Part shown: positions 9,325 through 24,585 of the stretch, piece by piece
Position numbering within the stretch: the first letter of the stretch is position 1
Layout of the letters: every line of letters starts with the position of its first letter
Source of the DNA: Paenibacillus mendelii
Lineage (GTDB): Bacteria; Bacillota; Bacilli; Paenibacillales; Paenibacillaceae
Direction: 5' to 3'
DNA: 64,000 nucleotides
Assembly (NCBI RefSeq): GCF_024498075.1
Contig: NZ_JANHOF010000001.1
Location: 248,001-312,000 of the forward strand
Position numbers and translations under genes: made by a program
Notes under the pieces: generated by a model
What the model was told of the DNA's origin: nothing
The model's database searches: none
The model's input: only the letters and a program-made list of their open reading frames with translations

Positions 9325-10290
9325 TTATCTCTGCTTCACCGATTCGCCTTCAACAAGCGATACATAGATACGCTCATGTTCTGCGCCAACACCTTCAATC
9401 AGCTTAATCAGCTGCTCGGCGGCGACCGCGCCCCATCTACTCTCGGAATAATCAATAGAGGCTAGACGCGGCTGCAAATAATCGGAGATTTCGATATGGT
9501 CGAAGCCGATCACGTGGATATGCTCGCCGATCCGGTACGGCGTATCCTTCAGCGCGTTGTACATGCCGATAGCCATCTCGTCGTTTAGGCAGAATACGGC
9601 GGCAGGACCGTCATACTCGTCCATGATACGCTGCGCTGCGGCTGCGCCGCTTGCCTTGTTGAAGTTACCGGGAATCTCGGCATACCAGAGCGGCCCGTTG
9701 CGCTCTACCGTCTGGCGCGCAGCCTGCAGCCGCTGCCCAGAGTCGAAAGAGCCTTTCGGTCCGGTCACGACATACAGCTTCTTATGGCCCATCCGCAGCA
9801 GATACTCTATTGCAAAAGTCGCCCCTGCCTTGTTGTCCAGCAGCACTTGAACGATATTGGAATGTCTGAGCTCACGGTCCAGCACGACCAGCTTATGGCC
9901 ACGGTTCGCGTAGAGAAGCAGCTCCTCATCCGTGAACATCCGGTCCAGCACGATTGCACCGTCCAGGAATCCTTCCGGCAGCATCCGGTGGGACTTCGTC
10001 CCGCTGCAGATGACCAGATCATATCCCCGTTTGCTCATCTCTTCTTTCATCCCTTGCAGGAGATCGCCGTAGAAAGCCCCTTCGAAGGAGGTCAGGAAGG
10101 CTCCAATGATCTTGGTCTCCCGTTTCTTTAACGTTCTGGCAGCCGCATTCGGCACGTAGTTGAGCTCTTTGGCAACTGCCAGTATCTTCTTCGTTGTTTC
10201 TTCCGTTACCTTCGGACTTCCGTTCAACGCGTAAGACACGGTTGAAATGGATACCCCCGCGTGCTTGGCAATGTCTTTGATGCTTACCAC
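9325..10290 (-). CDS. LacI family transcriptional regulator of the glycan operon
   Basis: A 321-residue sugar-responsive repressor. Residues 1-60 hold the LacI helix-turn-helix and hinge (VSIKDIAKHAGVSISTVSYA ... NYVPNAAARTLKKR), and the remainder is a periplasmic-binding-like sensor domain ending in RLASIDYSESRWG. It follows the GH94-like gene by about 93 bases on the same strand, so it is the last gene of the operon or has its own weak promoter. The three AAACGTTT-centred sites upstream of the sugar-binding protein gene have the central CG typical of LacI-family operators and are its probable targets (inference). The inducer should be a product or intermediate of the imported glycan. Confidence 0.92.
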   Translation of the reverse strand: MVSIKDIAKHAGVSISTVSYALNGSPKVTEETTKKILAVAKELNYVPNAAARTLKKRETKIIGAFLTSFEGAFYGDLLQGMKEEMSKRGYDLVICSGTKSHRMLPEGFLDGAIVLDRMFTDEELLLYANRGHKLVVLDRELRHSNIVQVLLDNKAGATFAIEYLLRMGHKKLYVVTGPKGSFDSGQRLQAARQTVERNGPLWYAEIPGNFNKASGAAAAQRIMDEYDGPAAVFCLNDEMAIGMYNALKDTPYRIGEHIHVIGFDHIEISDYLQPRLASIDYSESRWGAVAAEQLIKLIEGVGAEHERIYVSLVEGESVKQR

Positions 10291-10383: not shown

Positions 10384-13300
10384 TTACTCCATCCCGATGA
10401 CGATTTCGTTCAGGCCTTCCTTAAGAAGACCCACCAGCGCCTCGGTCCCGATACGTACACCGCCGTGGCGATACCGGTTCCTGTTAACGGCTGTCTGAAC
10501 GGATTCTCCATTCACAGTTACCTTGCGGACGGTATCCCCGCTAATCTCGTACCGGAACAGGATATCCCGTCCCATCCATTGGAAGCGGAAGCTCAGACCG
10601 TCCATCTCCGCAGTCAGCACGGGATCGAGGATGAGATCGCCGCTTTCCTGGCGGATCCCCAGACCGTTCGAGATCAGCTGATTCATATAGATGCCGGGAC
10701 CGCTGGAATAGATGCGCCAGCCGCCTTTAACCTGAACATCGCCCGTGCGCAGCTTGCCGAAACCGTCCTGCGCCTCGTACCGGTCCGCGAACTTCCCGTC
10801 CGAGCTGCTGAAATACGCATTGCTCTGGCGCCAGTCCGCGTTCGGGACGACGTCGCGCAAGCCGACGGGATTAATCATCGCGAGTCCTTTCCACACTTCA
10901 TCCCGCTTGCCCAGCTTTGCCATCGCTTCGATGAATCGAATATGAGCATGGACATATTGCAAACCGATCTCGCGGCCGAAGTTTGCGGCTTGCTCCGCGC
11001 GTTTGAACCGTGTGCTGACACCACCTGCATATTCAGCAGGCCGGTTCATCAGGCGCACGCCGTCTGGACAATAGAGTTCCTGCTTAATTAGACGGTAGTG
11101 GGACTCCGCTTGCTCCTCGTCGAGCAGTTCGCCGATCATGCTTCTGGTCATCGGAAGCAGGCGGTACGTAATGCCCGTCTTCTCGTCACTCGGATGAAGC
11201 ATCAGCTCCATGCTGCCCGGCTCCTCCATGTACGCAAAGCCGGAGATGATGCCGTCTTTGATCAAGTAGCTGTTGAAGTCGGTTTTGATGCCCTTGGCCA
11301 GCTCCTCTAGTTCTGCCGCCAGTTCTGCAAGATCCTCAAGATCTTCTTGTCCTTCTTGACCGGACAATGCGCCGGATAGCTGGGAGAACACTTGGTACGT
11401 GAGCGATACCGTCCAGCTGCTGATCATATACTGCTTCAGCTTGGCGTTCGCCGGCTGGAGCGTATCGTCCCAGTCGCCGTCCCCATAGGAGGACAGGTTC
11501 GTACCGTGAAGGAAATGATCCTTCATGTATTGCAATTCCTTGCGCGCATGATCGAGAACGGTATACGTCTCCTCCGTCAGTTCGCCCCCATGCGTGGTAT
11601 ATGGCACGCGTTCCTGCAGGATCGAGAAGTCGCCCGTTACCCGCAGATAATCGCTCAGCACTTTCAGCGGCCATACGATAATATCCCCGTGGCTCTCCTC
11701 CTGCTGAATGCGGTAGTACCGGTCGAACATGAACCATTGCGGCCAATTGCCGTCATGCTCATATTGATGGGTATAGACCGTCTTCAGAATGTCCTTCACT
11801 TGGCTGTAATTTCCCGTCGCCATAAAGTATTCCGTCGGCCCTTGGCAGACGTCGCGCGTACCCCAAGCCGCCCCGCTGTATTGCTCCAGCCCGTGCGGCA
11901 CAGAATAATGCACAAGCATGTTATGGGTATACCACCATGCGAGCGCATTGAACTTCTGCAGTTCCTGAGCCTTACTTCCAGCCTCATGTGACAGATGAAA
12001 CCCGTTCATGACGGACGACAAGAACGAACGGTAGCGCTCGATATCCGTCTCGGCGGAACGCATCGAAACCGGCTCTTTCGCATGAGACTCTTCTTCCAGA
12101 TTACCTTGTACCGTCAACCGCCACTTATCGGACGGCGCCAGCTCCAGCACCGTAAGCGAAGCCGATCCCACCGGTGCTGCAGCGACTAGCGCCTTCTCAT
12201 CCAGCACCGACATAGCCGCGCCTGCAATGCGAAGGCGGAAATGCAGCCCTGGATATGCACTGACACTCAAAGCATCCCCATGGGCGCGGAACACAAGATC
12301 TTCACCGTCCCGTTCCAACAGGTACGGCAGTTCATATTCTTTGTCGTTCATCGTGATCTGGTTGGTCACGAGGAAGCCGTAACGTTTACCTGCCTTCGAT
12401 GTAGCTTCTAGTGCAAGCTCCGGCGAATCTGCCGATGTCCATGCCGTAACGGTGAGCGTATCGTCTGCCAGCTTGTAATGCCAGCGGGCATAGTTAAACC
12501 CGATCTCGTACAGGGATGGCATCGTAAGTAAGCGGTATTTGCCTTCCATCTCGACATAGATCCGCTGTCCGGATGTTTTCAGCACATTCAGCGCACTGCG
12601 CGCATTCGTCATTAATTTATTGAAGGAAGTATTGCCTAATGTAATCTGCGAATGGAAGATGCCGTACATATAGTTCGTTGAAGACATTACGTTATCGTTC
12701 AACCGCGCGTTGTCGCCACTCATCAGGATGTGGCCATGCGGCCGTTCCATGCGCAGCTCCTTCGCCTTCAGCACAACATGTTCATACGTCCCGGTGAAGA
12801 AAGAGAGCAGCTCTTGACCATCCCATTCCTCTTGATGACGAACAGGGAACAATACTTCGATGTCGGCAAGCGTCATTGTTTCGGCGCGAAGAGGCTCGCC
12901 CATTCGTTCGTTCAGCGCAACTCTCTCTCTTGCTGAGAGGCCCTCGCCAATCTCCATCGCTTTCGCCTGCTCCCAAGCCTCAAGCAATTCCTCCTTGTAC
13001 TCGAGCTCGGAGATCGCTGCAGGATGATCCGGCTTGAGCAAGCCATAGAACACAAACGAGGCCGTCCCGCTCAGCTGAACCGTCTCCGATTGAAGTGCCG
13101 TATAAGCAAATTCATATTGATACACGGCGTTGTCCGGCTCTTTCCGCCCAAGCGCTTCCGGCACATTCGTCTCCTTATAAGAGAGACCGAAGAATTGGAA
13201 TCCATCCGTTGAATAACCTGCCGCCTTTGTCAACGAACCCTGCTGAAGGTACGGAAAGCCTGTTGACGCGGGTTGATTTTGCCTCGAGCATACAGTATAT

Positions 13301-13770
13301 CCGGTTTCTTCGTCGTTGAACGCCGTATGACCCACATATTGCGACACATAAGCTTCGTTCGTGCGCACTGCGCCTTTGTCGGCAAGCCCCAGGTCTTGGC
13401 CGTATATTACATCGGCTTGAATACCTTCGCCGGTGAGCTGTACTTCCCAGAACCAGATCAGCCCGGGCATAAGGGTAAAGATCACTTGATACGCTGCACC
13501 TAGAGCTTCCCCGCTCCACACGATGCGCCGCTGAGACACGCTCATCTTGCTATTTGACCGTACCCCCAGCAGAGGGACGGCCATAATCCGCTCTCCTTGC
13601 TGCACGCGCAGATAAAGATTGTTCATCGATCCATCCAATGGGTTGGACATGACCTGGTTGATCATTAAATCCTTATATTGTATCTCCTTCAAATCTCCGC
13701 TCTTCATGAACGTAAAGACAAGCTCGTCCGCCTGAACGTTGATTTCTTCCATCTCCAGTACTGTACTCAT
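10384..13770 (-). CDS. GH94-like glycoside phosphorylase/hydrolase (large form)
   Basis: A 1128-residue cytoplasmic enzyme. The N-terminal half is a beta-sandwich region. The C-terminal half is an (alpha/alpha)6 barrel with AAWGTRDVCQGPTEYF, NWPQWFMFDRY and SYGDGDWDDTLQPA (Trp767), the counterpart of the GDWNDGMN acid segment of GH94 phosphorylases. It ends with a small beta domain (TVRKVTVNGESV). The length is well above the roughly 800 residues of cellobiose phosphorylase and resembles the large beta-1,3-glucan phosphorylase families GH149/GH161, or uncharacterised GH94 relatives. It would release sugar 1-phosphate from an imported oligosaccharide. AAAGGAG precedes the start, and it lies downstream of the GH3 gene by about 30 bases. 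Exact family and linkage are not certain. Confidence 0.8.
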   Translation of the reverse strand: MSTVLEMEEINVQADELVFTFMKSGDLKEIQYKDLMINQVMSNPLDGSMNNLYLRVQQGERIMAVPLLGVRSNSKMSVSQRRIVWSGEALGAAYQVIFTLMPGLIWFWEVQLTGEGIQADVIYGQDLGLADKGAVRTNEAYVSQYVGHTAFNDEETGYTVCSRQNQPASTGFPYLQQGSLTKAAGYSTDGFQFFGLSYKETNVPEALGRKEPDNAVYQYEFAYTALQSETVQLSGTASFVFYGLLKPDHPAAISELEYKEELLEAWEQAKAMEIGEGLSARERVALNERMGEPLRAETMTLADIEVLFPVRHQEEWDGQELLSFFTGTYEHVVLKAKELRMERPHGHILMSGDNARLNDNVMSSTNYMYGIFHSQITLGNTSFNKLMTNARSALNVLKTSGQRIYVEMEGKYRLLTMPSLYEIGFNYARWHYKLADDTLTVTAWTSADSPELALEATSKAGKRYGFLVTNQITMNDKEYELPYLLERDGEDLVFRAHGDALSVSAYPGLHFRLRIAGAAMSVLDEKALVAAAPVGSASLTVLELAPSDKWRLTVQGNLEEESHAKEPVSMRSAETDIERYRSFLSSVMNGFHLSHEAGSKAQELQKFNALAWWYTHNMLVHYSVPHGLEQYSGAAWGTRDVCQGPTEYFMATGNYSQVKDILKTVYTHQYEHDGNWPQWFMFDRYYRIQQEESHGDIIVWPLKVLSDYLRVTGDFSILQERVPYTTHGGELTEETYTVLDHARKELQYMKDHFLHGTNLSSYGDGDWDDTLQPANAKLKQYMISSWTVSLTYQVFSQLSGALSGQEGQEDLEDLAELAAELEELAKGIKTDFNSYLIKDGIISGFAYMEEPGSMELMLHPSDEKTGITYRLLPMTRSMIGELLDEEQAESHYRLIKQELYCPDGVRLMNRPAEYAGGVSTRFKRAEQAANFGREIGLQYVHAHIRFIEAMAKLGKRDEVWKGLAMINPVGLRDVVPNADWRQSNAYFSSSDGKFADRYEAQDGFGKLRTGDVQVKGGWRIYSSGPGIYMNQLISNGLGIRQESGDLILDPVLTAEMDGLSFRFQWMGRDILFRYEISGDTVRKVTVNGESVQTAVNRNRYRHGGVRIGTEALVGLLKEGLNEIVIGME

Positions 13771-13799: not shown

Positions 13800-15959
13800 C
13801 TATGCTTTCAAGATAAACCTAAGCTCCTGCACATCGCGGCTGTTTGCCCCGACCATGACCGCGAACTGGCCTGGATCGCTCTTATATTGCAAATCCGAAT
13901 GATGATACCGAAGCATCTCCTCCGTAATTTCAAACACGATATCTTTGCTTTCTCCCGGCATGAGCGCCGTTTTCTCGAAAGCCTTCAGCTCACGCAGCGG
14001 CCGGACTGTCTCACCCGCTATATCGCGTATATAGAGCTGAACGGTTTCTTCGCCTTCTAGTCTGCCGGCGTTCGTTACGCGAACGGATACCAGGAGCTTG
14101 CCGCCGACGCTGAGTTCGTTAGCCGACAAGGCGGCTTCCCCGTATTGGAAGTCGGTATAGCTCAGACCGAAGCCGAACGGCAGCAGCGGCTCGTTCGGGA
14201 TGTCCAAATATTGCGATACGTAGCGCAGCTGAGCATCCGGCGCCCCTTGCGGGCGGCCTGTGTTGAATCCGTTATAATAGACCGGCACCTGTCCCACGGA
14301 ATGCGGGAAGCTCATCGTCAGACGGCCGGAAGGATTCGCGACGCCGTAGAGCAGCTCGGCCACCGCAGAACCGCCGTTGCTGCCGGGATACCACGCTTCC
14401 AGCACGGCGTCTGCCTCGTCCAGCACGCCATGAAGATCAAGCGGCCTGCCGTTGAACAGCACAGCGGCCACCGGCTTGCCCAATGCTTTCGCTTGCTTCA
14501 CCAGCTCCAGCTGCATGCCAGGCAAGCGGATATCGGCACGGCATCCCGCCTCGCCGCTCATCTCCGAGCTTTCTCCCAGCGCCAGCACGATAACATCGGC
14601 TTCCCGGGCTGCAGCCAGCATAGCTTCCAGCTCCAGATCTGTCATGTATTCCACGCTGCAGCCTGTCGCCGTCACTTGCGGCTGGCCTGCAATAGCAATC
14701 ATGCCTTGGCTTAGTGTAACGGTTTCTTCCCTATCACCCATGCACGACCATGGCCCAAGCAAGTCATTGCTGAGCGCGAACGGGCCGATCAGCGCAATCT
14801 TCGCCAGCTTCGAGAGCGGCAGTATACCGTCGTTCTTGAGCAGAACGCTTGACTTTATTGCGGCTTCCTGTGCCGACGCACGGTGTTCGTCGCTGAGGAG
14901 AATGTCGCGCTCTACCGCTGGATCCGCATAACGATGCGGATTTTCGAACAGTCCCAGCTTGCGCTTCAGCTTCAGGATGCGCATGACTGCTTCGTCGATA
15001 AGCGCTTCGTCCACTTCCCCGCTCTCCACCAGCTCCTGCAGATGATGAACGTAACAAGGGGACATCATCTCGATATCGACACCGGCTTCGATCGCTTTGC
15101 GTGCGCATTCCCGTTCGTCCTCTGCCACGCCATGGGGAATCATCTCCTTCACAGCGCCCCAATCCGAGATGAGAACGCCGTCGAAGCCCCATTCATCGCG
15201 AAGCAGGTCTCTCATCAGCCTGCGGTTGCCCGACGCCGGAATGCCGTCCACCGTATTGAAGGCAGTCATCACCATCTCGCAGCCCTCATCCAGCGCGGCG
15301 CGGTATGAAGGCATATAGTATTCGCGGCTCATCCACGCAGACATATCGACCGTATTATCCCGGCCACCTTCAGCTGCGCCGTAAGCGGCGAAGTGCTTGA
15401 TGCAAGCCGCCAGCTTGTATGGCTCCTTCGACAAGTCCTTGCCCTGGTAACCGCGTACGAATGCGCGTGCGTATTGACTGTTTAACCAAGGGTCTTCACC
15501 TGTCGACTCCATCACCCTTCCCCAACGGGGATCGCGCGTCAAGTCCGCCATCGGCGAGAAGGTGACGTGTATACCCGCAACGGAAGCTTCCTTCGCCGCG
15601 ATCGCAGCGGATCGCTTCGCCAGCTCCATGTCCCATGAGCAGCCCAGTGCGAGCGGCACCGGGAAGATGGTCCGGTAACCGTGTATGACATCGGCCATTG
15701 CAATCAATGGAATGGACAGCCGGTGATTGCGGATGTGGGCGTCCTGAATTGCTATAGCCTCTTCCGCTCCTCCGAGTCCAAGCACAGAGCCGGCATGATG
15801 GATCATTTCCTCCGTCATGCCCATCCCTTCCAGCGGACCTGTAATCTGGCCGGCGCTGTTAGATCCTTCATAGAACGCAGGTGCGAGCTGCTGAAGCTGA
15901 GCAATCTTCTCGCTTAACGTCATTTCCTTCAGTAAGGATTGCAATTGTATATCCTTCAA
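13800..15959 (-). CDS. GH3 family beta-glycosidase
   Basis: A 719-residue intracellular beta-glycosidase. The GH3 barrel carries FSPMADLTRDPRWGRVMES, KHFAAYG and the nucleophile in GVLISDWGAV (Asp266). The C-terminal alpha/beta sandwich shows GEAGCRADIRLPG, and a fibronectin-III-like domain ends the protein. It removes single beta-linked residues, usually glucose or xylose. Translation begins at a TTG: GGAGG lies 8 bases before it and no ATG is better placed. It sits between the sulfatase (15-base gap) and the GH94-like gene, so it should act on desulfated oligosaccharides from the same import route. Confidence 0.92.
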   Translation of the reverse strand: MKDIQLQSLLKEMTLSEKIAQLQQLAPAFYEGSNSAGQITGPLEGMGMTEEMIHHAGSVLGLGGAEEAIAIQDAHIRNHRLSIPLIAMADVIHGYRTIFPVPLALGCSWDMELAKRSAAIAAKEASVAGIHVTFSPMADLTRDPRWGRVMESTGEDPWLNSQYARAFVRGYQGKDLSKEPYKLAACIKHFAAYGAAEGGRDNTVDMSAWMSREYYMPSYRAALDEGCEMVMTAFNTVDGIPASGNRRLMRDLLRDEWGFDGVLISDWGAVKEMIPHGVAEDERECARKAIEAGVDIEMMSPCYVHHLQELVESGEVDEALIDEAVMRILKLKRKLGLFENPHRYADPAVERDILLSDEHRASAQEAAIKSSVLLKNDGILPLSKLAKIALIGPFALSNDLLGPWSCMGDREETVTLSQGMIAIAGQPQVTATGCSVEYMTDLELEAMLAAAREADVIVLALGESSEMSGEAGCRADIRLPGMQLELVKQAKALGKPVAAVLFNGRPLDLHGVLDEADAVLEAWYPGSNGGSAVAELLYGVANPSGRLTMSFPHSVGQVPVYYNGFNTGRPQGAPDAQLRYVSQYLDIPNEPLLPFGFGLSYTDFQYGEAALSANELSVGGKLLVSVRVTNAGRLEGEETVQLYIRDIAGETVRPLRELKAFEKTALMPGESKDIVFEITEEMLRYHHSDLQYKSDPGQFAVMVGANSRDVQELRFILKA

Positions 15960-15974
15960 TGCTTTAACCTCCGC

Positions 15975-17381
15975 CTAATGGATGTATTCGTCCTGGACCT
16001 CGTCCATCAGATTTTCCAGCTGCTTCTTCAAGTCTTGTATACGATCCGCGTATTCCAGTTGACCGTACACGTTGTTCAGCTCATAAGGATCCTGCTCCAG
16101 GTCGAAGCATTCCCATTCCGGCGGGCGTGATTCGTCGCGCGAATCCGTCGTGCCGAGCGCCTGGGCGTAATAATAGATCAGTTTGTACCGGTGCGTGCGA
16201 ATTCCGTAATGTGAATAGACCTCATGGCAGCCATCAAGATGCATCCAATACCGGTAAAACATCGACGTCCGCCATCCGTCCGGCGTCGTGCCTTTCAACA
16301 GCGGTCTAATACTGAAGCCTTGCATCCGTTCATGGACTGGCAAGCCAGCGTACTCAAGGAACGTAGGGGCAAAGTCTGTGTTCAGGATCATCGTATCGCT
16401 CACGCTGCCGGGCTTAATTTCCCTTGGGTAACGGATCAGGAACGGCATTCGCAGCGATTCCTCGTACATGAACCGTTTGTCGAACCAGCCGTGATCGCCG
16501 AGGAAGAAGCCTTGGTCGGACGTATAGATCACGATCGTGTCCTCCGCCAACCCGGATTCGTCGAGGTATTCCAGCATGCGGCCCACATTATCGTCAATAG
16601 AAGCGATGCAGCGAAGATAATCCTTGATATACCGTTGATATTTCCACTTGCGGACCTCATCGGGGGACAACCCTTCCGGCGGCGGTCCTTTCGTATCCAG
16701 CTCGTTCAGATCGTCAATTCGCATCTTTGCCTGCACGGCCGCTTGCGAACGTGTGGCGTAATCGTCGTTGAACGTGACCGGTTCTGGAATGTCAATATCT
16801 TCGTAGAGGTGCATATGCTTCTCGTCTGGTTCCCAGTGGCGGTGCGGTGCCTTATGATGGCACATCAGCATAAACGGTCGTTCCTTATCCCGATTGCGGA
16901 TCCAATCCAGCGATTTATCCGTAATAATGTCCGTGACATAGCCGTTAAATTTCTTCACCTTACCCATTTCGATGAAATCAGGATCTCGGTAATCACCCTG
17001 ATCGGGCAATACACTCCAGTAATCGAAGCCCGTCGGGTCATAGTTGCCGCCGTGTCCGAGATGCCACTTGCCAATCATCGCTGTTTGGTAGCCATCCGCC
17101 TGAAGCAGCTTCGGGAACGTCACTTGCCGGCCATCCAGATCATCGCCCAACGTCTTGACGCCGTTGATATGGTTATAGGTCCCTGTCAGAATCGAGGCTC
17201 GGCTTGGCGCGCAGATCGAATTCGTGCAGAAGCAGTTGTCGAAGCGCATCCCCTCCTGCGCCAACCGATCCAGATGGGGCGTAACATTAATACGGCTCCC
17301 GTATGCGCCAATCGCATGCGAAGCGTGGTCGTCCGACATGATAAACAGAATGTTAGGACGCTTGTTATCGGAAGAAGACAT
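15975..17381 (-). CDS. Type I sulfatase (cysteine-type)
   Basis: A 468-residue sulfuric ester hydrolase without a signal peptide. The N-terminus reads PNILFIMSDDHASHAIGAYG, with the metal-binding Asp pair. The sulfatase signature is C57-A-P-S-R, in which Cys57 must be turned into formylglycine. NHINGVKTL, GKWHLGH and HHKAPHRHW follow. The C-terminus matches family members that act on sugar sulfates. Its place between the ABC permease and GH3 genes says that it desulfates an imported oligosaccharide in the cytoplasm. An anaerobic sulfatase-maturating enzyme would be needed; none is in this window. The start follows AAGAAGG. Confidence 0.93.
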   Translation of the reverse strand: MSSSDNKRPNILFIMSDDHASHAIGAYGSRINVTPHLDRLAQEGMRFDNCFCTNSICAPSRASILTGTYNHINGVKTLGDDLDGRQVTFPKLLQADGYQTAMIGKWHLGHGGNYDPTGFDYWSVLPDQGDYRDPDFIEMGKVKKFNGYVTDIITDKSLDWIRNRDKERPFMLMCHHKAPHRHWEPDEKHMHLYEDIDIPEPVTFNDDYATRSQAAVQAKMRIDDLNELDTKGPPPEGLSPDEVRKWKYQRYIKDYLRCIASIDDNVGRMLEYLDESGLAEDTIVIYTSDQGFFLGDHGWFDKRFMYEESLRMPFLIRYPREIKPGSVSDTMILNTDFAPTFLEYAGLPVHERMQGFSIRPLLKGTTPDGWRTSMFYRYWMHLDGCHEVYSHYGIRTHRYKLIYYYAQALGTTDSRDESRPPEWECFDLEQDPYELNNVYGQLEYADRIQDLKKQLENLMDEVQDEYIH

Positions 17382-17405: not shown

Positions 17406-18263
17406 TTATTTCATACCGGAAATGCTGAAGTTCTCAATAATATGCTTCTGGAAATAGGTAAACAACACGATGACGGGAGCGACCATGAACGCTGCACCTG
17501 CCATCTGTAAGCCGAAGTTGGCGGCATATTGCCCTTTCAGGAGCGACAAACCGACGGATAAGGTGTACAAGCTTTCATCGTTGGCGATAATAAGCGGCCA
17601 CAGAAAGCTGTTCCATCCGGCGATAAACGTCAGAATGGCTTGTACCGCAATGATGGGCTTGGAGATCGGCAGAACGATTTGCAAGAAAATGCGATATTCG
17701 CTCGCCCCGTCCAGCCGAGTCGCTTCCAGCAGCTCGGTCGGAATGGTCGACATGAACTGGCGGAAGAGGAAAATGGCGAACGCTCCCACGAGACCCGGAA
17801 GCACGATACCGGTCATCGTATTCGTCAGCCCTAACGAATTCAGAATGAGATACACCGGAATCATTGTGACTTGGCTTGGAATCATCATCGTCGCCAGCAC
17901 AAGCACGAAGAGCGCGTTCCTGCCTTTGAACTCATATTTCGCGAAGCCAAAGCCCGCGACTGCGTTCAGAAACAGGCCAACGAACGAGAACAGAACGATA
18001 ATCAGCGTGTTTTTCAGGTACACGTCAAAGTTCATGTTCTGGAACAAATATTTGAAATTATGAAGTGTGAAGGTGTCGGGCCAGAAGGTAGGCGGGATCT
18101 GTACGATCTCATTTTCCGGCTTGAAGGAAGACATGATCATCCAGAAGAAAGGCAGCAGGAAGAAGATGCCGCCAATGCCCAGGACAATGCCGGAAATCCA
18201 TTGAAATAAGCTGCCTTGACGCTCCTTCACCTTCCCTTTCTTCGTTGCAATTGTTGAACTCAT
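17406..18263 (-). CDS. Carbohydrate ABC transporter permease (MalG type)
   Basis: A 285-residue inner-membrane permease of the CUT1 family with six predicted helices. The cytoplasmic coupling loop is LEATRLDGASEYRIFLQIVLPISKP (EAA motif, about residues 180-205). It forms a heterodimer with the product of the next upstream gene, 16 bases away. The ATPase is not encoded here, so a shared MsmX-like ATPase from elsewhere is probable, as is usual in Firmicutes. Imports the operon's oligosaccharide. Confidence 0.93.
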   Translation of the reverse strand: MSSTIATKKGKVKERQGSLFQWISGIVLGIGGIFFLLPFFWMIMSSFKPENEIVQIPPTFWPDTFTLHNFKYLFQNMNFDVYLKNTLIIVLFSFVGLFLNAVAGFGFAKYEFKGRNALFVLVLATMMIPSQVTMIPVYLILNSLGLTNTMTGIVLPGLVGAFAIFLFRQFMSTIPTELLEATRLDGASEYRIFLQIVLPISKPIIAVQAILTFIAGWNSFLWPLIIANDESLYTLSVGLSLLKGQYAANFGLQMAGAAFMVAPVIVLFTYFQKHIIENFSISGMK

Positions 18264-18279: not shown

Positions 18280-19170
18280 TCAAGTCATGTCCGACTCATT
18301 TTTTTGCATCCTCAACTGAACAAGCGTAATGGCAATGATGCACACGAACAACACGAAGGAGCCCGCTGCCGCATACCCGAAGTTGTTGAATTTGAAGCCG
18401 TTCTGGTAAATAAACAAAGCGACGGACAGCGTACCGTCAAGCGGGCCGCCTTCGGTCATAACGAACGGCTCCTCGAAAAATTGAAGCCAGCCGATCATCG
18501 TCGTAATGGACACGAAGAAAATCGCAAACCGCAGCATCGGAATCGTAACTTTCGTCACTTGCTGCCACAGGTTCGCTCCGTCAAGCTGCGCGGCTTCGTA
18601 ATAAGACTTCGGAATGCCTTGCAGCGCCGCGATGAAGATAATCATGTTAAGGCCGATCGACTTCCATAACGCCAGCAGAATCAGCGAAAGCTTAGCGATC
18701 GTCGGTTCCGTCAACCATGGCACATCGGGCAATCCCACCAGATTCAGCAGGTAATTGAACAGGCCAAGCGACGGATTATAGAGGTAACTCCAAACAACCG
18801 CCACAGCCACGATATTCGTCACGGAAGGGAGATAATAGACAACGCGAAAGGCTTTGAAAATCCGGGACGTACCCAAATTAATCAACAAAGCGATGCTGAG
18901 CGATAACAAGATGACAAGCGGCACACCGATGATGACGTAGAAGAGCGTATTGAAGATCGCCTTCAGGAACACGGGGTCCGCAAGCACTTCAGTATAGTTG
19001 GTGAAACCGATAAAACTGATGGAATCGAAATTCGCCAATCCGCTAAGGTCCATATCGGTGAAGCTGATCACGAGCGCAACCAAGATCGGAACGATTGAGA
19101 ACAGCGTCAACAGGATCAAGGTCGGTGCGATAAAAATATACGGTGCTTGCTTATTCAGAAAACCTCTCAT
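18280..19170 (-). CDS. Carbohydrate ABC transporter permease (MalF type)
   Basis: A 296-residue permease with six helices. The EAA loop is SYYEAAQLDGANLWQQVTKVTIPML (about residues 195-220), and the N-terminus APYIFIAPTLILLTLFSIVPI is typical for MalF/UgpA homologues without the long periplasmic loop. It pairs with the MalG-type permease and receives substrate from the lipoprotein encoded just upstream. Confidence 0.93.
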   Translation of the reverse strand: MRGFLNKQAPYIFIAPTLILLTLFSIVPILVALVISFTDMDLSGLANFDSISFIGFTNYTEVLADPVFLKAIFNTLFYVIIGVPLVILLSLSIALLINLGTSRIFKAFRVVYYLPSVTNIVAVAVVWSYLYNPSLGLFNYLLNLVGLPDVPWLTEPTIAKLSLILLALWKSIGLNMIIFIAALQGIPKSYYEAAQLDGANLWQQVTKVTIPMLRFAIFFVSITTMIGWLQFFEEPFVMTEGGPLDGTLSVALFIYQNGFKFNNFGYAAAGSFVLFVCIIAITLVQLRMQKNESDMT

Positions 19171-19286: not shown

Positions 19287-20546
19287 TTACTTCATCATTT
19301 TGGTCGCGTCGTTATTGAAGCTTTCCATTTCTTTCTTCACGTCAACGTTGTTGCGGTAGATGACTTCGAAGTGCTTCAGGTAGTTTTCGCTAATTGGTGA
19401 CCATTCCGTAATAACGGGCATAGGTTGAGCGGCATTCAATTGATCGCCAATTACTTTGTAATTCGGGTCGTTCTTGAGCATATCGTTTTCCCATGCAGCA
19501 GTTGCCGCAGGAAGGGAGCTCGTTTCTTCCATCCATTTGATTTGCGTTTCCGGCTTGCTCATGTAAGCGATGAACTTCGCAGCTGCATCCTTATTTTTCG
19601 AGTATTCGAATATGGACAGGTTGGAGCCGCCAAGCAATGAGATATTGTTTTCTTTCTTCGGCAGTACAGCCATCGCCCATTTGCCGTCGATTTCAGGCGC
19701 TTGATCCTGAATCAGCTTAATCATCCACGGACCGCTAATGAACATCGGCAGAATGCCTTCTTTGAATGCCGGAATGATGTCAAGACCGAGATCCTTCGGA
19801 GCGGAACCGTTCTGGAAGAAGCTGTTAAGATACTCGACGGCTTCTACGAATTTCGGATCGCTAAAGTTAGGCTTGCCATCTTCTGTGAACCATTGCGCGC
19901 CATTCTGGCGGGAGAACATGAAGCCTAGGGACTGTTCTTTCGGGTCAATGCTGATACCGTATTTGCCGTCGCCGCGAGCAGCAAGCTTCTTAGCTGCATC
20001 GGACAGCTCGTCCCATGTTGCAGGGGCTGCGTTAAAGCCGGCTTCCTTGAGCAGATCCGTGCGGTAATACAGAACGCGGGTCTCAACGTACCACGGTGAA
20101 CCTACATATTTGTCGCCATATTTCGCACTTTCAACCGCACCCGGATAGAAGTTCTCCGGCTTCAGCTCCGGATATTGCTCCAGGTAAGGCGTCAGATCTG
20201 TAAGCACGCCCGCTTCAGCGAATTCCGGAATCCAGGAGGTCCCCATCTGAATGACGTCAGGGCCTTTCTTGGATGCGACAGCCGTCAGCATCTTCTCGTG
20301 GCCTTGGTTCCAAGGCAGTGCCTGTACCTTAACCGTAATATTCGGATTTTCTTTCGTGAATTCATCAGCGAGCTTCGGCAAGGTTTTGGCTTCTTCCCCC
20401 ATGCCCCATACATTCAGCGTTACCTTCTCGTTCGACGTGCCGTTGCCGGTATCCGTGCCGCCGGATGTATTGTTATTTGTTCCGCAGCCCGCAAGCAATC
20501 CTACACTTAGTAAGATGGCCGTCATCACTTTAATATTCTTTTTCAC
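19287..20546 (-). CDS. Extracellular sugar-binding lipoprotein of the ABC importer
   Basis: A 420-residue solute-binding protein. The signal peptide ends in the lipobox LLAGC, so it is lipid-anchored outside the membrane. A Gly/Ser/Thr/Asn linker and an MalE-like two-lobe domain follow (NVWGMGEEAKTLPKLADEF, GPWMIKLIQDQ). The start is placed at the GTG at 20546 because AGAGGGG lies 8 bases upstream; an ATG at 20564 would put the ribosome site inside the gene. It is the first gene of the operon. The ligand is unknown but should be a sulfated or sulfate-substituted oligosaccharide, given the downstream sulfatase. Confidence 0.92.
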   Translation of the reverse strand: MKKNIKVMTAILLSVGLLAGCGTNNNTSGGTDTGNGTSNEKVTLNVWGMGEEAKTLPKLADEFTKENPNITVKVQALPWNQGHEKMLTAVASKKGPDVIQMGTSWIPEFAEAGVLTDLTPYLEQYPELKPENFYPGAVESAKYGDKYVGSPWYVETRVLYYRTDLLKEAGFNAAPATWDELSDAAKKLAARGDGKYGISIDPKEQSLGFMFSRQNGAQWFTEDGKPNFSDPKFVEAVEYLNSFFQNGSAPKDLGLDIIPAFKEGILPMFISGPWMIKLIQDQAPEIDGKWAMAVLPKKENNISLLGGSNLSIFEYSKNKDAAAKFIAYMSKPETQIKWMEETSSLPAATAAWENDMLKNDPNYKVIGDQLNAAQPMPVITEWSPISENYLKHFEVIYRNNVDVKKEMESFNNDATKMMK

Positions 20547-20716
20547 ACCGATTACCCCTCTCATTTATGTCGCTGTTAAGGCTCATAGTCATTTCTTAAT
20601 CTTTACTTATCCTTAGATTCTCTTTTTCAAACAACCCTCAGCCGGTCAACCCTCCCTAGTTAGAATGTCCTTCATTTCCAATGTGATTCAAGTACATGCG
20701 ACTGGAAACCAGTAGT

Positions 20717-20726
20717 GAAACGTTTC
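20717..20726. promoter_or_regulatory. LacI-type operator, site 1 (in the leader)
   Basis: GAAACGTTTC is a perfect palindrome centred at 20721.5 and followed by GATT, as in site 2. It lies in the untranslated leader of the glycan operon, exactly 65 bases from site 2. Confidence 0.72.
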
Positions 20727-20777
20727 GATTATGGTTAATAAGTGCCTTATGAGCGGTTATCCTTGCTCGATATACAT

Positions 20778-20795
20778 AATATAAACGTTTCGATT
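20778..20795. promoter_or_regulatory. LacI-type operator, site 2 (over the transcription start)
   Basis: AATATAAACGTTTCGATT is centred at 20786.5. It is the exact reverse complement of site 3 over 18 bases. It lies just downstream of the inferred -10 element, so a bound repressor would cover the transcription start. Confidence 0.8.
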
Positions 20796-20797
20796 TG

Positions 20798-20826
20798 ATT
20801 ATAGTCTAAAATGTAACCGATTAAAA
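20798..20826 (-). promoter_or_regulatory. Likely promoter of the glycan operon
   Basis: On the minus strand a perfect TATAAT (20798-20803) has a weak -35 candidate, TTTTAA (20821-20826), 17 bases upstream. It lies between operator sites 2 and 3. The leader to the GTG would be about 245 bases. Confidence 0.6.
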
Positions 20827-20842
20827 GAGGATAAATAAAGAT

Positions 20843-20860
20843 AATCGAAACGTTTATATT
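20843..20860. promoter_or_regulatory. LacI-type operator, site 3 (upstream of promoter)
   Basis: AATCGAAACGTTTATATT is centred at 20851.5, the exact inverted copy of site 2 and exactly 65 bases from it. Its position upstream of -35 suits DNA looping with sites 1 and 2. Confidence 0.8.
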
Positions 20861-21013
20861 TTTGTGTAAAAATAAGTACATTTTCTAATGTCCAACCCTA
20901 ACAAAGGGAGGTATCGGATGGATCCTTGGATATGAATATGATCAGCTAATAATGGCTTATAGTTTGGGAAAGAATGAGTATAACACGCTTTCCGTCCTCA
21001 AACGCAAAATAAA

Positions 21014-21044
21014 AAGGCGCCGATTTACCTGCACCGGTCGCCTT
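21014..21044 (-). terminator. Terminator after the 164-residue lipoprotein gene
   Basis: AAGGCGCCG pairs imperfectly with CGGTCGCCTT, and the minus strand continues with TTTTTATTTT. It lies 14 bases past the stop codon. Confidence 0.75.
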
Positions 21045-21057
21045 CCTTTGAATCGAA

Positions 21058-21552
21058 TTATTGGGGCTGCAATTCAATAACCTGATTGGCTATGTTATAG
21101 GCTTTAATGTCTGCTGCATGGATGTTCTCGTCGATAAAGGATATCCATAAACGAATGTCATCCCGTTGAATCAGCTTAGCCTCCTCTCCTCTGATTCGAA
21201 TATGTTCAACCTCTGGGTCGTGTGTTGTAATTGCTGTCATTCTAAAGGGCATCTTCGTATTCGCGGTAATAAGGTATGAATATTCTCTAGGGTCTAACAC
21301 ACCTACACCATCTAAGACTCTCCATTTGTCCTTGATCTGTTCAAGATAACTTATGGTAATAAATCCGTCCCTCATTAGATTAAAGGACAGAATCCCTTCT
21401 TCCTTCAGTTCATAATGCAGTGTCCGCTCATAATCGGGCAGCTTCTTCAATTGATCCTCCAGCTGGGACATGTTGAACTCCTTGTTACCATTGCAGGCCG
21501 TGCAAAATACAATCATAATGACGACTATTACGTACCGGCTCCAATATGCCAT
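21058..21552 (-). CDS. Putative lipoprotein, function unknown
   Basis: A 164-residue protein. A short basic and hydrophobic N-terminus ends in FCTAC, a lipobox-like site, so it is probably anchored to the outer face of the membrane. The remainder is charged with alternating beta-like segments and no recognised domain. The upstream lipoprotein gene is on the same strand about 80 bases away. Function not recognised. Confidence 0.65.
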   Translation of the reverse strand: MAYWSRYVIVVIMIVFCTACNGNKEFNMSQLEDQLKKLPDYERTLHYELKEEGILSFNLMRDGFITISYLEQIKDKWRVLDGVGVLDPREYSYLITANTKMPFRMTAITTHDPEVEHIRIRGEEAKLIQRDDIRLWISFIDENIHAADIKAYNIANQVIELQPQ

Positions 21553-21633: not shown

Positions 21634-22215
21634 CTACGTAACCACTTTAAAATCAATTTGAGCTTTTATGTTAAACTCTTCTTCCTTCTCCTCGCCATCC
21701 ACATTCGACACAACATAGAAATCGGCAAATCCATCTACGACAAAATAGCCAACCGGAAATCCATCCTTCCAAAAGCTTTTCATGAAGTTGATGTATTCCT
21801 TATCGTCCGTTTCCCCATAGCTCCCACTGTTCTGATAAACTTCACGAAGGGGCTCGCCTTTCTTGAGCGTCGTGCTTAATAAGGGTTGGTTCATATTATA
21901 ATCGATGCTGTAATTCCGTGTTTTCTCCTCAATCGGAAATGAGAAGGGGGACTGGGCGTGAAAAATCGTAATGGTTTCACTGTCGCCTACATATTCCAGC
22001 TCCGCATAGATCGTGACTGATTCCCCTTTGCGATATTCACCCTTCTTGGTGACAAGCCGGTAAATAAATTCATCTTCCGTCACCTCGGCATTCGTCTTAT
22101 TAAGTACTTCATAATTAATCGTACTGGGGTTCTCATTATCCATTTGTTCAGGCGAAGCGCAAGCTGTTAACAAGAGCGTTAGTATTGCAAATCCCAATAA
22201 AATGGTTTCTCTCAT
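21634..22215 (-). CDS. Putative lipoprotein with Ig-like beta fold, function unknown
   Basis: A 193-residue protein with a lipobox (LLTAC, cleavage near residue 19). The body holds GEYRKGESVTIYAELEYVGDSETITIFH, a pattern of beta strands like the intracellular-proteinase-inhibitor or Ig-like domains of Bacillus lipoproteins. A GGGAGGG site precedes the ATG. It is followed by a second lipoprotein gene. Role unknown. Confidence 0.65.
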   Translation of the reverse strand: MRETILLGFAILTLLLTACASPEQMDNENPSTINYEVLNKTNAEVTEDEFIYRLVTKKGEYRKGESVTIYAELEYVGDSETITIFHAQSPFSFPIEEKTRNYSIDYNMNQPLLSTTLKKGEPLREVYQNSGSYGETDDKEYINFMKSFWKDGFPVGYFVVDGFADFYVVSNVDGEEKEEEFNIKAQIDFKVVT

Positions 22216-22950: not shown

Positions 22951-24333
22951 CTATTTTATTTTTTCTAACAGCTGTATGATCATCTCCGCTAGCAGATCAG
23001 CCGCTTCAGGGGCAAACGCAGTTTGAATGACTTCATATCCGCCTTGGGAGAATGCTTCGGCAGTCGCTAGATAGCCGTTTGCTCCGTTCGAGTAACCGCT
23101 GAATAACGTATATGGGAATGGAGAGTCTTCTCTGATGCGTTTCCCTGTTGCAGAGAAGGGCTCCAGCGGAATCCCGATCAGCACGACGTCGGCTATGCGA
23201 ATGATATGGGCTTCAATATCGGCGTATGGTTTGCCATAAAAGTTTCTCGAATAACGCAGAGCCATATTGTTGCGCTTCAATTGAAAGTTAGCCTCGCTAA
23301 TTTGCTCAGCAGGAGCATTGGCCTCCCTTAGACGGGTCAAGTCAGCGACGAGATCTTGATTGATTTGCTCCAATTCCTCCGTTGGCCGCAACGCTCCGAT
23401 AGGTAGTGACAGCATTTCGGAGAACACTTGAAAGGGAACCGGAGCTTGAGGCTTACGTGTCCGGGACCATATTCCCAAGCTTGCTCCAGATTCAACTACT
23501 TCCGAGAAGCCGTATTCGAATTGCTTGCCTCTCGCCTCAATTAAGGCTTGCGAGGCAGCACAGCCAAGCATGGTGCCCATGTCTTGTACAACATCCATTC
23601 GATCCAGGAAGCCGCCTGGCCCTGGACCAATATCGCCGGTCGCCCCTTGTAGAAAGAGGCAGATCCCGCCTACGGTTTGTTCTACAAACCGTTTGGTTAC
23701 ACCGGGATAGTCCGGACTTGCGGCATGGTTCGTATAGCCAAGGGTTGTCGGGTGAGCCGCATAATGAACGATACTGGCTACGATATTGCCATCCTTGTCA
23801 TCAAATCGAATCGTTGACACGGTGGGGTCTGTCTCGCCCGATTCGTTGAAGCCGGTGATGACTCTTCCATTATCGAGCTTCTGTCTCCGGTTTTTACCGA
23901 TCGAACACATTCCATATTCCGCATGAACAGAGACATTGACCTGCCGGCTTGCCGCTTCCAGAGCTGAACTGACACTCTGCTCGATTAGATAGCGAACGTA
24001 CAAGTCCAATAACTCGCGATTAGGTGAATGTGAGGCATCCCCTACTACAGGACCCGCGTGAGTATGGGTTGTAGAAACACGGACCTGATGCTTGTCTATA
24101 TGCAGAGCTGCTGCAACCGCGGAACGGATTTGATCCGACTGCAGGTTGGATAGAAGACAGAGATCAAAGTCCAGTAAGGCTGTACTGGATTGACCGTCCC
24201 CTAGAACAAGTGCGGTACACCAGAAATCAGATTCGATGTGACTGGGGGTAATATGGGTTTGCGCCCCCCACCCTCCTTGAGCCATCGTTAAGGGTGGATT
24301 GATTACTGCGCGAGCGGCTCCTGCTTTCAGCAT
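22951..24333 (-). CDS. Neutral/alkaline ceramidase-like protein (N-terminal domain family)
   Basis: About 460 residues. The N-terminus LKAGAARAVINPPL and the metal-binding segment STTHTHAGPVVGD are those of the neutral/alkaline non-lysosomal ceramidase family. HYAAHPTTLGY and FLQGATGDIGPG are further conserved pieces. There is no signal peptide, unlike secreted ceramidases, so the substrate may be another amide in the cytoplasm. GGAG precedes the ATG at 24333; an ATG at 24351 is also possible. A second member of the family lies at 61,042-62,547. Such genes occur in Paenibacillus near glycan catabolic genes, where the role is unknown. Confidence 0.8.
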   Translation of the reverse strand: MLKAGAARAVINPPLTMAQGGWGAQTHITPSHIESDFWCTALVLGDGQSSTALLDFDLCLLSNLQSDQIRSAVAAALHIDKHQVRVSTTHTHAGPVVGDASHSPNRELLDLYVRYLIEQSVSSALEAASRQVNVSVHAEYGMCSIGKNRRQKLDNGRVITGFNESGETDPTVSTIRFDDKDGNIVASIVHYAAHPTTLGYTNHAASPDYPGVTKRFVEQTVGGICLFLQGATGDIGPGPGGFLDRMDVVQDMGTMLGCAASQALIEARGKQFEYGFSEVVESGASLGIWSRTRKPQAPVPFQVFSEMLSLPIGALRPTEELEQINQDLVADLTRLREANAPAEQISEANFQLKRNNMALRYSRNFYGKPYADIEAHIIRIADVVLIGIPLEPFSATGKRIREDSPFPYTLFSGYSNGANGYLATAEAFSQGGYEVIQTAFAPEAADLLAEMIIQLLEKIK

Positions 24334-24585
24334 GCCATCAGCTCCATTCATTATTCTTAATTCCTTGCTAGAACGCCAATCGGCAGCTCCTACTAAGTAT
24401 GTTCATTACCATAAGTCAAATAATACCAAGAAATTATCATACAGTATACCTTAATTGATAGAAATACGAATGATAGATTGTGACGTATACTTTATTGATC
24501 ATTGAAAAAGCCGCGGAGCGTTTAGCCCCTACGGCCTTTGGTTGTAAGTCTTATCAGTTCCTGTCTGCTAGTAAAATGCGCCGGA

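Follow-up and report, generated by a model that had tools for sequence, protein, structure and literature searches.

Putative LacI-family operators in helical phase around a cre-like site at a beta-1,2-glucooligosaccharide operon of Paenibacillus mendelii

The operon and its control region

The window, that is the whole 64,000-nucleotide stretch of P. mendelii DNA analysed, contains a beta-1,2-oligoglucan operon on the minus strand. Its first gene encodes a sugar ABC transporter substrate-binding protein (19287-20564, PF01547). It is followed by two ABC transporter permeases (18280-19170 and 17406-18263, both PF00528), a sulfatase-superfamily enzyme (15975-17381, PF00884 and PF16347), a GH3 beta-glucosidase scoring above the BglX cut-off (13800-15959) and a SOGP phosphorylase with SOGP_N, SOGP_2nd, SOGP_4th and Glyco_hydro_94 matches (10384-13770). 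The last gene (9325-10290) encodes a LacI-family regulator of 321 residues, with PF00356 at residues 3-48 and PF13377 at residues 161-318. 'SogR' is our working label for this protein and its orthologues. SOGP together with a transporter, a GH3 enzyme and a LacI-family gene identifies a beta-1,2-glucan (SOGP) utilisation cluster. Listeria innocua lin1838-lin1843 also combines SOGP, GH3, an ABC transporter and a LacI-family gene, lin1838, which was suggested as the regulator; in the accessible part of that paper, regulation is suggested only and operator sites are not described (PMC3960220). No operator map or phasing analysis of the L. innocua SOGP cluster was found in the open-licence literature. 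Earlier work may exist, and the map given here is the first that we found there for a beta-1,2-glucan phosphorylase cluster.

The sulfatase has counterparts in L060 and L061 that are 88-89% identical to it while the adjoining SOGP is only 61% identical. It is therefore either strongly constrained or has moved separately. Its role may be to strip natural beta-1,2-glucans of a substituent.

Upstream of the first gene, the motif AAACGTTT occurs at 20718-20725, 20783-20790 and 20848-20855. These are its only copies in the 64 kb, where shuffling predicts 0.76 per window. A first-pass annotation, made from the sequence alone, had described the three sites as LacI-family operators placed 65 bp apart around one promoter. 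A sequence scan confirms the centres (20721.5, 20786.5 and 20851.5), and the features below support their assignment as putative operators. We name them O_up (site 3, AATCGAAACGTTTATATT, 20843-20860), O_main (site 2, AATATAAACGTTTCGATT, 20778-20795) and O_down (site 1, TAGTGAAACGTTTCGATT, 20713-20730), with no strand assigned. The 18-mers of O_up and O_main are exact reverse complements and O_down shares the right half of O_main, both as the annotation had it.

The TATAAT that it placed between sites 2 and 3 is present on the minus strand (20803-20798). It is the likely -10 element and is conserved in orthologous promoters. Comparison with orthologous upstream regions places the -35 element at 20821-20826 on the same strand (TTTTAA, with TTGAAT in most relatives), leaving a 17-bp spacer. 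Transcription from this promoter runs into the minus-strand operon for the transporter and the phosphorylase, a point absent from the annotation. Transcription would start at about 20791, so that the operator centres would lie at about -60 (O_up), +5 (O_main, over the predicted start) and +70 (O_down). O_up holds the same place in 11 orthologous promoters, where O_main and O_down also recur. TTTACA/GATTAT at 20870-20841, the choice of an automatic promoter scan, was set aside because it is the TATAAT promoter that is conserved in relatives.

The consensus of 165 operators, AATCGAAACGTTTCGATT, is an even, CG-centred palindrome of the 16-22 bp class, as for LacI/GalR-family operators; the sites were chosen by their AAACGTTT core, so independent support comes from the flanks only. 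SogR itself has the N-terminal LacI helix-turn-helix and the periplasmic-binding-protein-like core of the LacI/GalR family. Its gene ends the operon that the three sites would control, and it is the best candidate for their regulator, as first proposed. The LacI-family (CcpA) model has 42 matches in this genome. The core is not exclusive to SogR, for AAACGTTT sites also occur at SOGP loci that lack it. No further AAACGTTT-core site with up to two mismatches to ATCGAAACGTTTCGAT was found elsewhere in the 8.13-Mb genome, and the regulon therefore looks local. An Rfam search of 20500-21100 gave one sub-threshold match only, outside the operator array. The probability of a AAACGTTT triplet inside 150 bp, estimated from the shuffle density, is about 1e-6 with equal spacing not yet demanded. 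A chance origin is ruled out by this density, by the genome-wide rarity of the sites and by the phase statistics across loci.

Operator spacing across related loci

Eleven loci share the promoter type of the window, with SogR 77-100% identical to that of the window. O_up and O_main are 65 or 66 bp apart in all of them. Ten have O_down 64-66 bp from O_main; in the remaining one the distance is 86 bp, two turns longer. The 65-bp spacing is thus conserved with a single exception, and neither single sites nor random spacing, the outcomes that the annotation had named against its proposal, occurs in these promoters. The O_main-O_down spacer can hardly be aligned (identity averages 0.36, vs 0.27 shuffled; 0.23 between the window and L048). 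It is close to random between species, so its length and not its sequence is kept.

The wider sample comprises 157 distinct SOGP loci, 87 of which have SogR downstream. Operators occur in close groups in 67 of the 87 and no close pair is seen in the other 20. In these 67 loci, the spacings form a ladder of 53-56, 64-66, 75-77, 85-88, 97, 139-140, 150-152 and 160-161 bp. The 148 adjacent spacings are fitted best by a period of 10.68 bp (nR2 = 86.8, vs a jitter null maximum of 13.4). Keeping one locus per 85%-identity SogR cluster (35 clusters by single linkage, a rough stand-in for a tree-based test) leaves 75 spacings with R = 0.72 and a period of 10.74 bp (nR2 = 39.4 vs a null maximum of 11.5, p <= 0.0005). 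The signal holds when the 63-67 bp mode is removed (n = 51, p = 0.0002) and when each distinct spacing value is counted once (n = 34, p = 0.0002). With harder thinning, at 75% identity, 14 clusters and 27 spacings remain (p = 0.001); the best period, 10.12 bp, is poorly fixed in that set. For thinned spacings above 120 bp, a set too small at n = 13, the phase signal is not significant (p = 0.25). Up to 120 bp, 122 of 126 spacings deviate by no more than a quarter turn from the phase, itself fitted to these data. Off-phase spacings also exist (100, 122, 104, 46 and 31 bp).

The regular helical phase claimed for the three sites is therefore real and conserved in relatives. The turn count needs a small correction: with the fitted repeat of 10.7 bp, 65 bp makes 6.1 turns, and the 6.2 turns first given presume 10.5 bp. 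Two or more operators in helical phase, as seen here, are the sequence mark expected of looping or co-operative multi-operator repression of the gal or AraR type.

The spacing could in principle be inherited and functionless. The loci share descent, and much of the promoter-spacer sequence is common to the closest orthologues. Against this stand a spacer that diverged in sequence while its length held, and a phase that survives thinning. Moreover, length shifts are mostly whole turns. Comparison of homologous intervals in nearest relatives gives differences of 0-2 bp in 65 cases, 10-13 bp in 12 and 20-22 bp in 9, with 3-9 bp in two and 15 bp in one; the remainder, of at least 25 bp, likely reflect site gain or loss. 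The most distant loci, two from one other family of Bacilli and presumably Listeria relatives, have SogR at 45-47% identity and spacings of 63-64 and 66 bp. We consider shared ancestry alone extremely improbable. Degenerate operators also lie in phase within several long intervals (66+86 bp in L049, 65+75 bp in L054).

SOGP loci without SogR, mostly with a LacI gene of 35% identity, provide a contrast set. Their phase is weaker (R = 0.36, 61 spacings), which indicates that pairing of AAACGTTT sites does not by itself bring phasing. Loci with the 35%-identity gene (e.g. L092-L097 and L166-L172) have the same core at spacings of 125-127, 160-163, 170-179 and 183-185 bp, and are much less well phased. 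A family-wide search found GAAACGTTTC pairs 50-80 bp apart in 25 of 216 genomes, mostly at SOGP clusters. In one family genome, three GAAACGTTTC sites are spaced by 64 and 77 bp (G379:C1:30468-30618). At L066:19383-19799, a second SogR-like gene (75% identity) has its own operator triplet, at 85 and 108 bp, which are whole turns.

A cre-like site midway between operators

A cre-like site missed in the first-pass annotation lies between O_up and O_main. This candidate CcpA site, TTTAATCGGTTACA (20812-20825, minus strand), has its centre at 20818.5, at distances of 33 and 32 bp from the centres of O_up and O_main, respectively. It matches 10 positions of the cre consensus TGWAANCGNTNWCA, as would be expected in a CcpA regulon. 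A true CcpA is encoded at G000:C4:563549-564535 (496.5 bits vs a cut-off of 442.35). Most promoter-bearing 65-bp intervals have a CcpA-type cre at their midpoint (33+33 bp). Of 40 thinned 63-67 bp intervals, 19 have a cre-like site no more than 2.5 bp from the midpoint, vs a null mean of 0.01 in shuffles, as counted on the same loci that suggested the feature.

Promoters occur in two registers about 11 bp apart inside one operator frame, a comparison that was again made on the loci that suggested it. In the first (TTGAAT/TATAAT), the -10 is at index 52 and the central cre overlaps the -35. In the second (TTGACT/TATAAT), found in GH3-side promoters, the -10 is at index 40-42 and overlaps the cre. 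The cre is central in both, so it keeps its place relative to the operators rather than to the promoter.

These registers bear on a reading in which no loop is formed, SogR dimers and CcpA binding independently and only their face relative to RNA polymerase mattering, with a block at O_main and a roadblock at O_down. O_main, just past the -10, would suffice to block initiation, and a common phase would follow for all sites positioned with respect to a single promoter. However, the -10 of GH3-side promoters has moved while the spacing of operators and cre is unchanged. Furthermore, phase is also kept by sites beyond the reach of a polymerase at the promoter, namely O_down at +70 and the outer operators of divergent promoters, which argues for contact between the bound proteins. 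Independent binding is thus unlikely in our view.

Contact might also be made without a loop, if SogR, CcpA and SogR dimers 32-33 bp apart touched side by side in a chain of mixed co-operativity. The cre-to-operator distance is 31-35 bp in the majority. Adjacent LacI-family sites in RegPrecise generally favour whole turns, with family-wide peaks at 22 and 32 bp read as co-operative binding (Ravcheev et al. 2014, PMC4052901), which makes side-by-side contact a real alternative. These peaks are short ones; a 54 to 97 bp ladder with a central cre is not reported in the accessible part of that study. Many of the phased intervals of 54, 76, 86 and 97 bp have no cre midway, and such a chain appears decidedly unlikely.

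Possible co-operation of SogR dimers

The annotation had proposed that a LacI-type tetramer bridges pairs of operators. A bidentate repressor does need several operators in helical phase, and E. coli LacI is a tetramer. SogR aligns to LacI residues 4-325 of 360 and only seven residues remain after the match. The C-terminal tetramerisation helix is absent, and the sampled orthologues have like ends. The tetramer is thus rejected on protein length and is very unlikely as a basis for the array.

Our preferred reading, to which we give a probability of roughly 60%, is that the array controls the beta-1,2-glucooligosaccharide operon through SogR dimers that sit on a single DNA face and co-operate by way of short loops, with the cre and CcpA at the apex. 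SogR dimers would occupy O_up, O_main and O_down co-operatively, all on the same face. In the simplest form, six-turn DNA loops would be shut by weak dimer-dimer contacts, as with E. coli GalR or B. subtilis AraR; such contacts are favoured because SogR has no tetramerisation helix. With O_main over the transcription start, binding at O_up would close a loop that traps the promoter. When glucose is plentiful, CcpA would bind the midpoint cre and its bend at the apex would aid loop closure, coupling catabolite repression with operon-specific repression. Induction would free SogR, the inducer probably being a beta-1,2-glucooligosaccharide. The geometry counts against looping: a loop of 65 bp is very tight where each bound dimer bends the DNA away from itself. 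Contact between SogR dimers might also be hindered by CcpA bound to the same face.

A more specific proposal is a conserved operator-cre-operator module with operators six turns apart. CcpA would be its architectural apex, and loop closure would read glucose and substrate together. A repressor without a tetramerisation domain would have preserved a whole-turns-only spacing rule in several families of Bacilli. We advance this tentatively, as a possibility short of even odds.

To our knowledge, evidence that repressor operators are helically phased derives mostly from engineered constructs in a handful of model operons. The SOGP loci offer a natural experiment across dozens of species, in which spacer sequence drifts and spacer length moves mostly by whole turns. 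They yield an estimate of the in-vivo helical repeat from sequence alone, about 10.7 bp, and the ladder predicts how a Gram-positive LacI-family repressor without the tetramerisation helix co-operates.

E. coli GalR is a LacI-family repressor without the tetramerisation domain of LacI. The absence of the helix from SogR makes gal and AraR closer models than lac. Much as proposed for the present array, two gal operators, about 11 turns apart, enclose promoters, the outer one at -60.5, with a bending protein at the apex (PMC4693257). In gal, this protein is HU, not a regulator of sugar status, and the operators are 113 bp apart instead of 65 bp. The present regions have three or four operators and a midpoint cre, on which CcpA may be the counterpart of HU. 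B. subtilis AraR, a sugar repressor from a Gram-positive host, has a C-terminal domain of LacI type and binds co-operatively to two in-phase operators at araABDLMNPQ-abfA, araE and abf2, forming a small DNA loop (PMC4218819). It differs in its GntR-type DNA-binding domain and in having two operators; a central cre is not described in the accessible part of that source. The lac operon resembles the present array in having three LacI-family operators (O1, O2 and O3) around one promoter and a spacing effect governed by helical phase. In-vivo looping repeats in lac were fitted at 11.1-11.6 bp (PMC1762422), vs 10.7 bp here.

On the other side of the control region, two small proteins without a Pfam match (21058-21552 and 21634-22215) adjoin a gene at 22951-24351 whose product matches the neutral/alkaline ceramidase N-terminal domain (PF04734).
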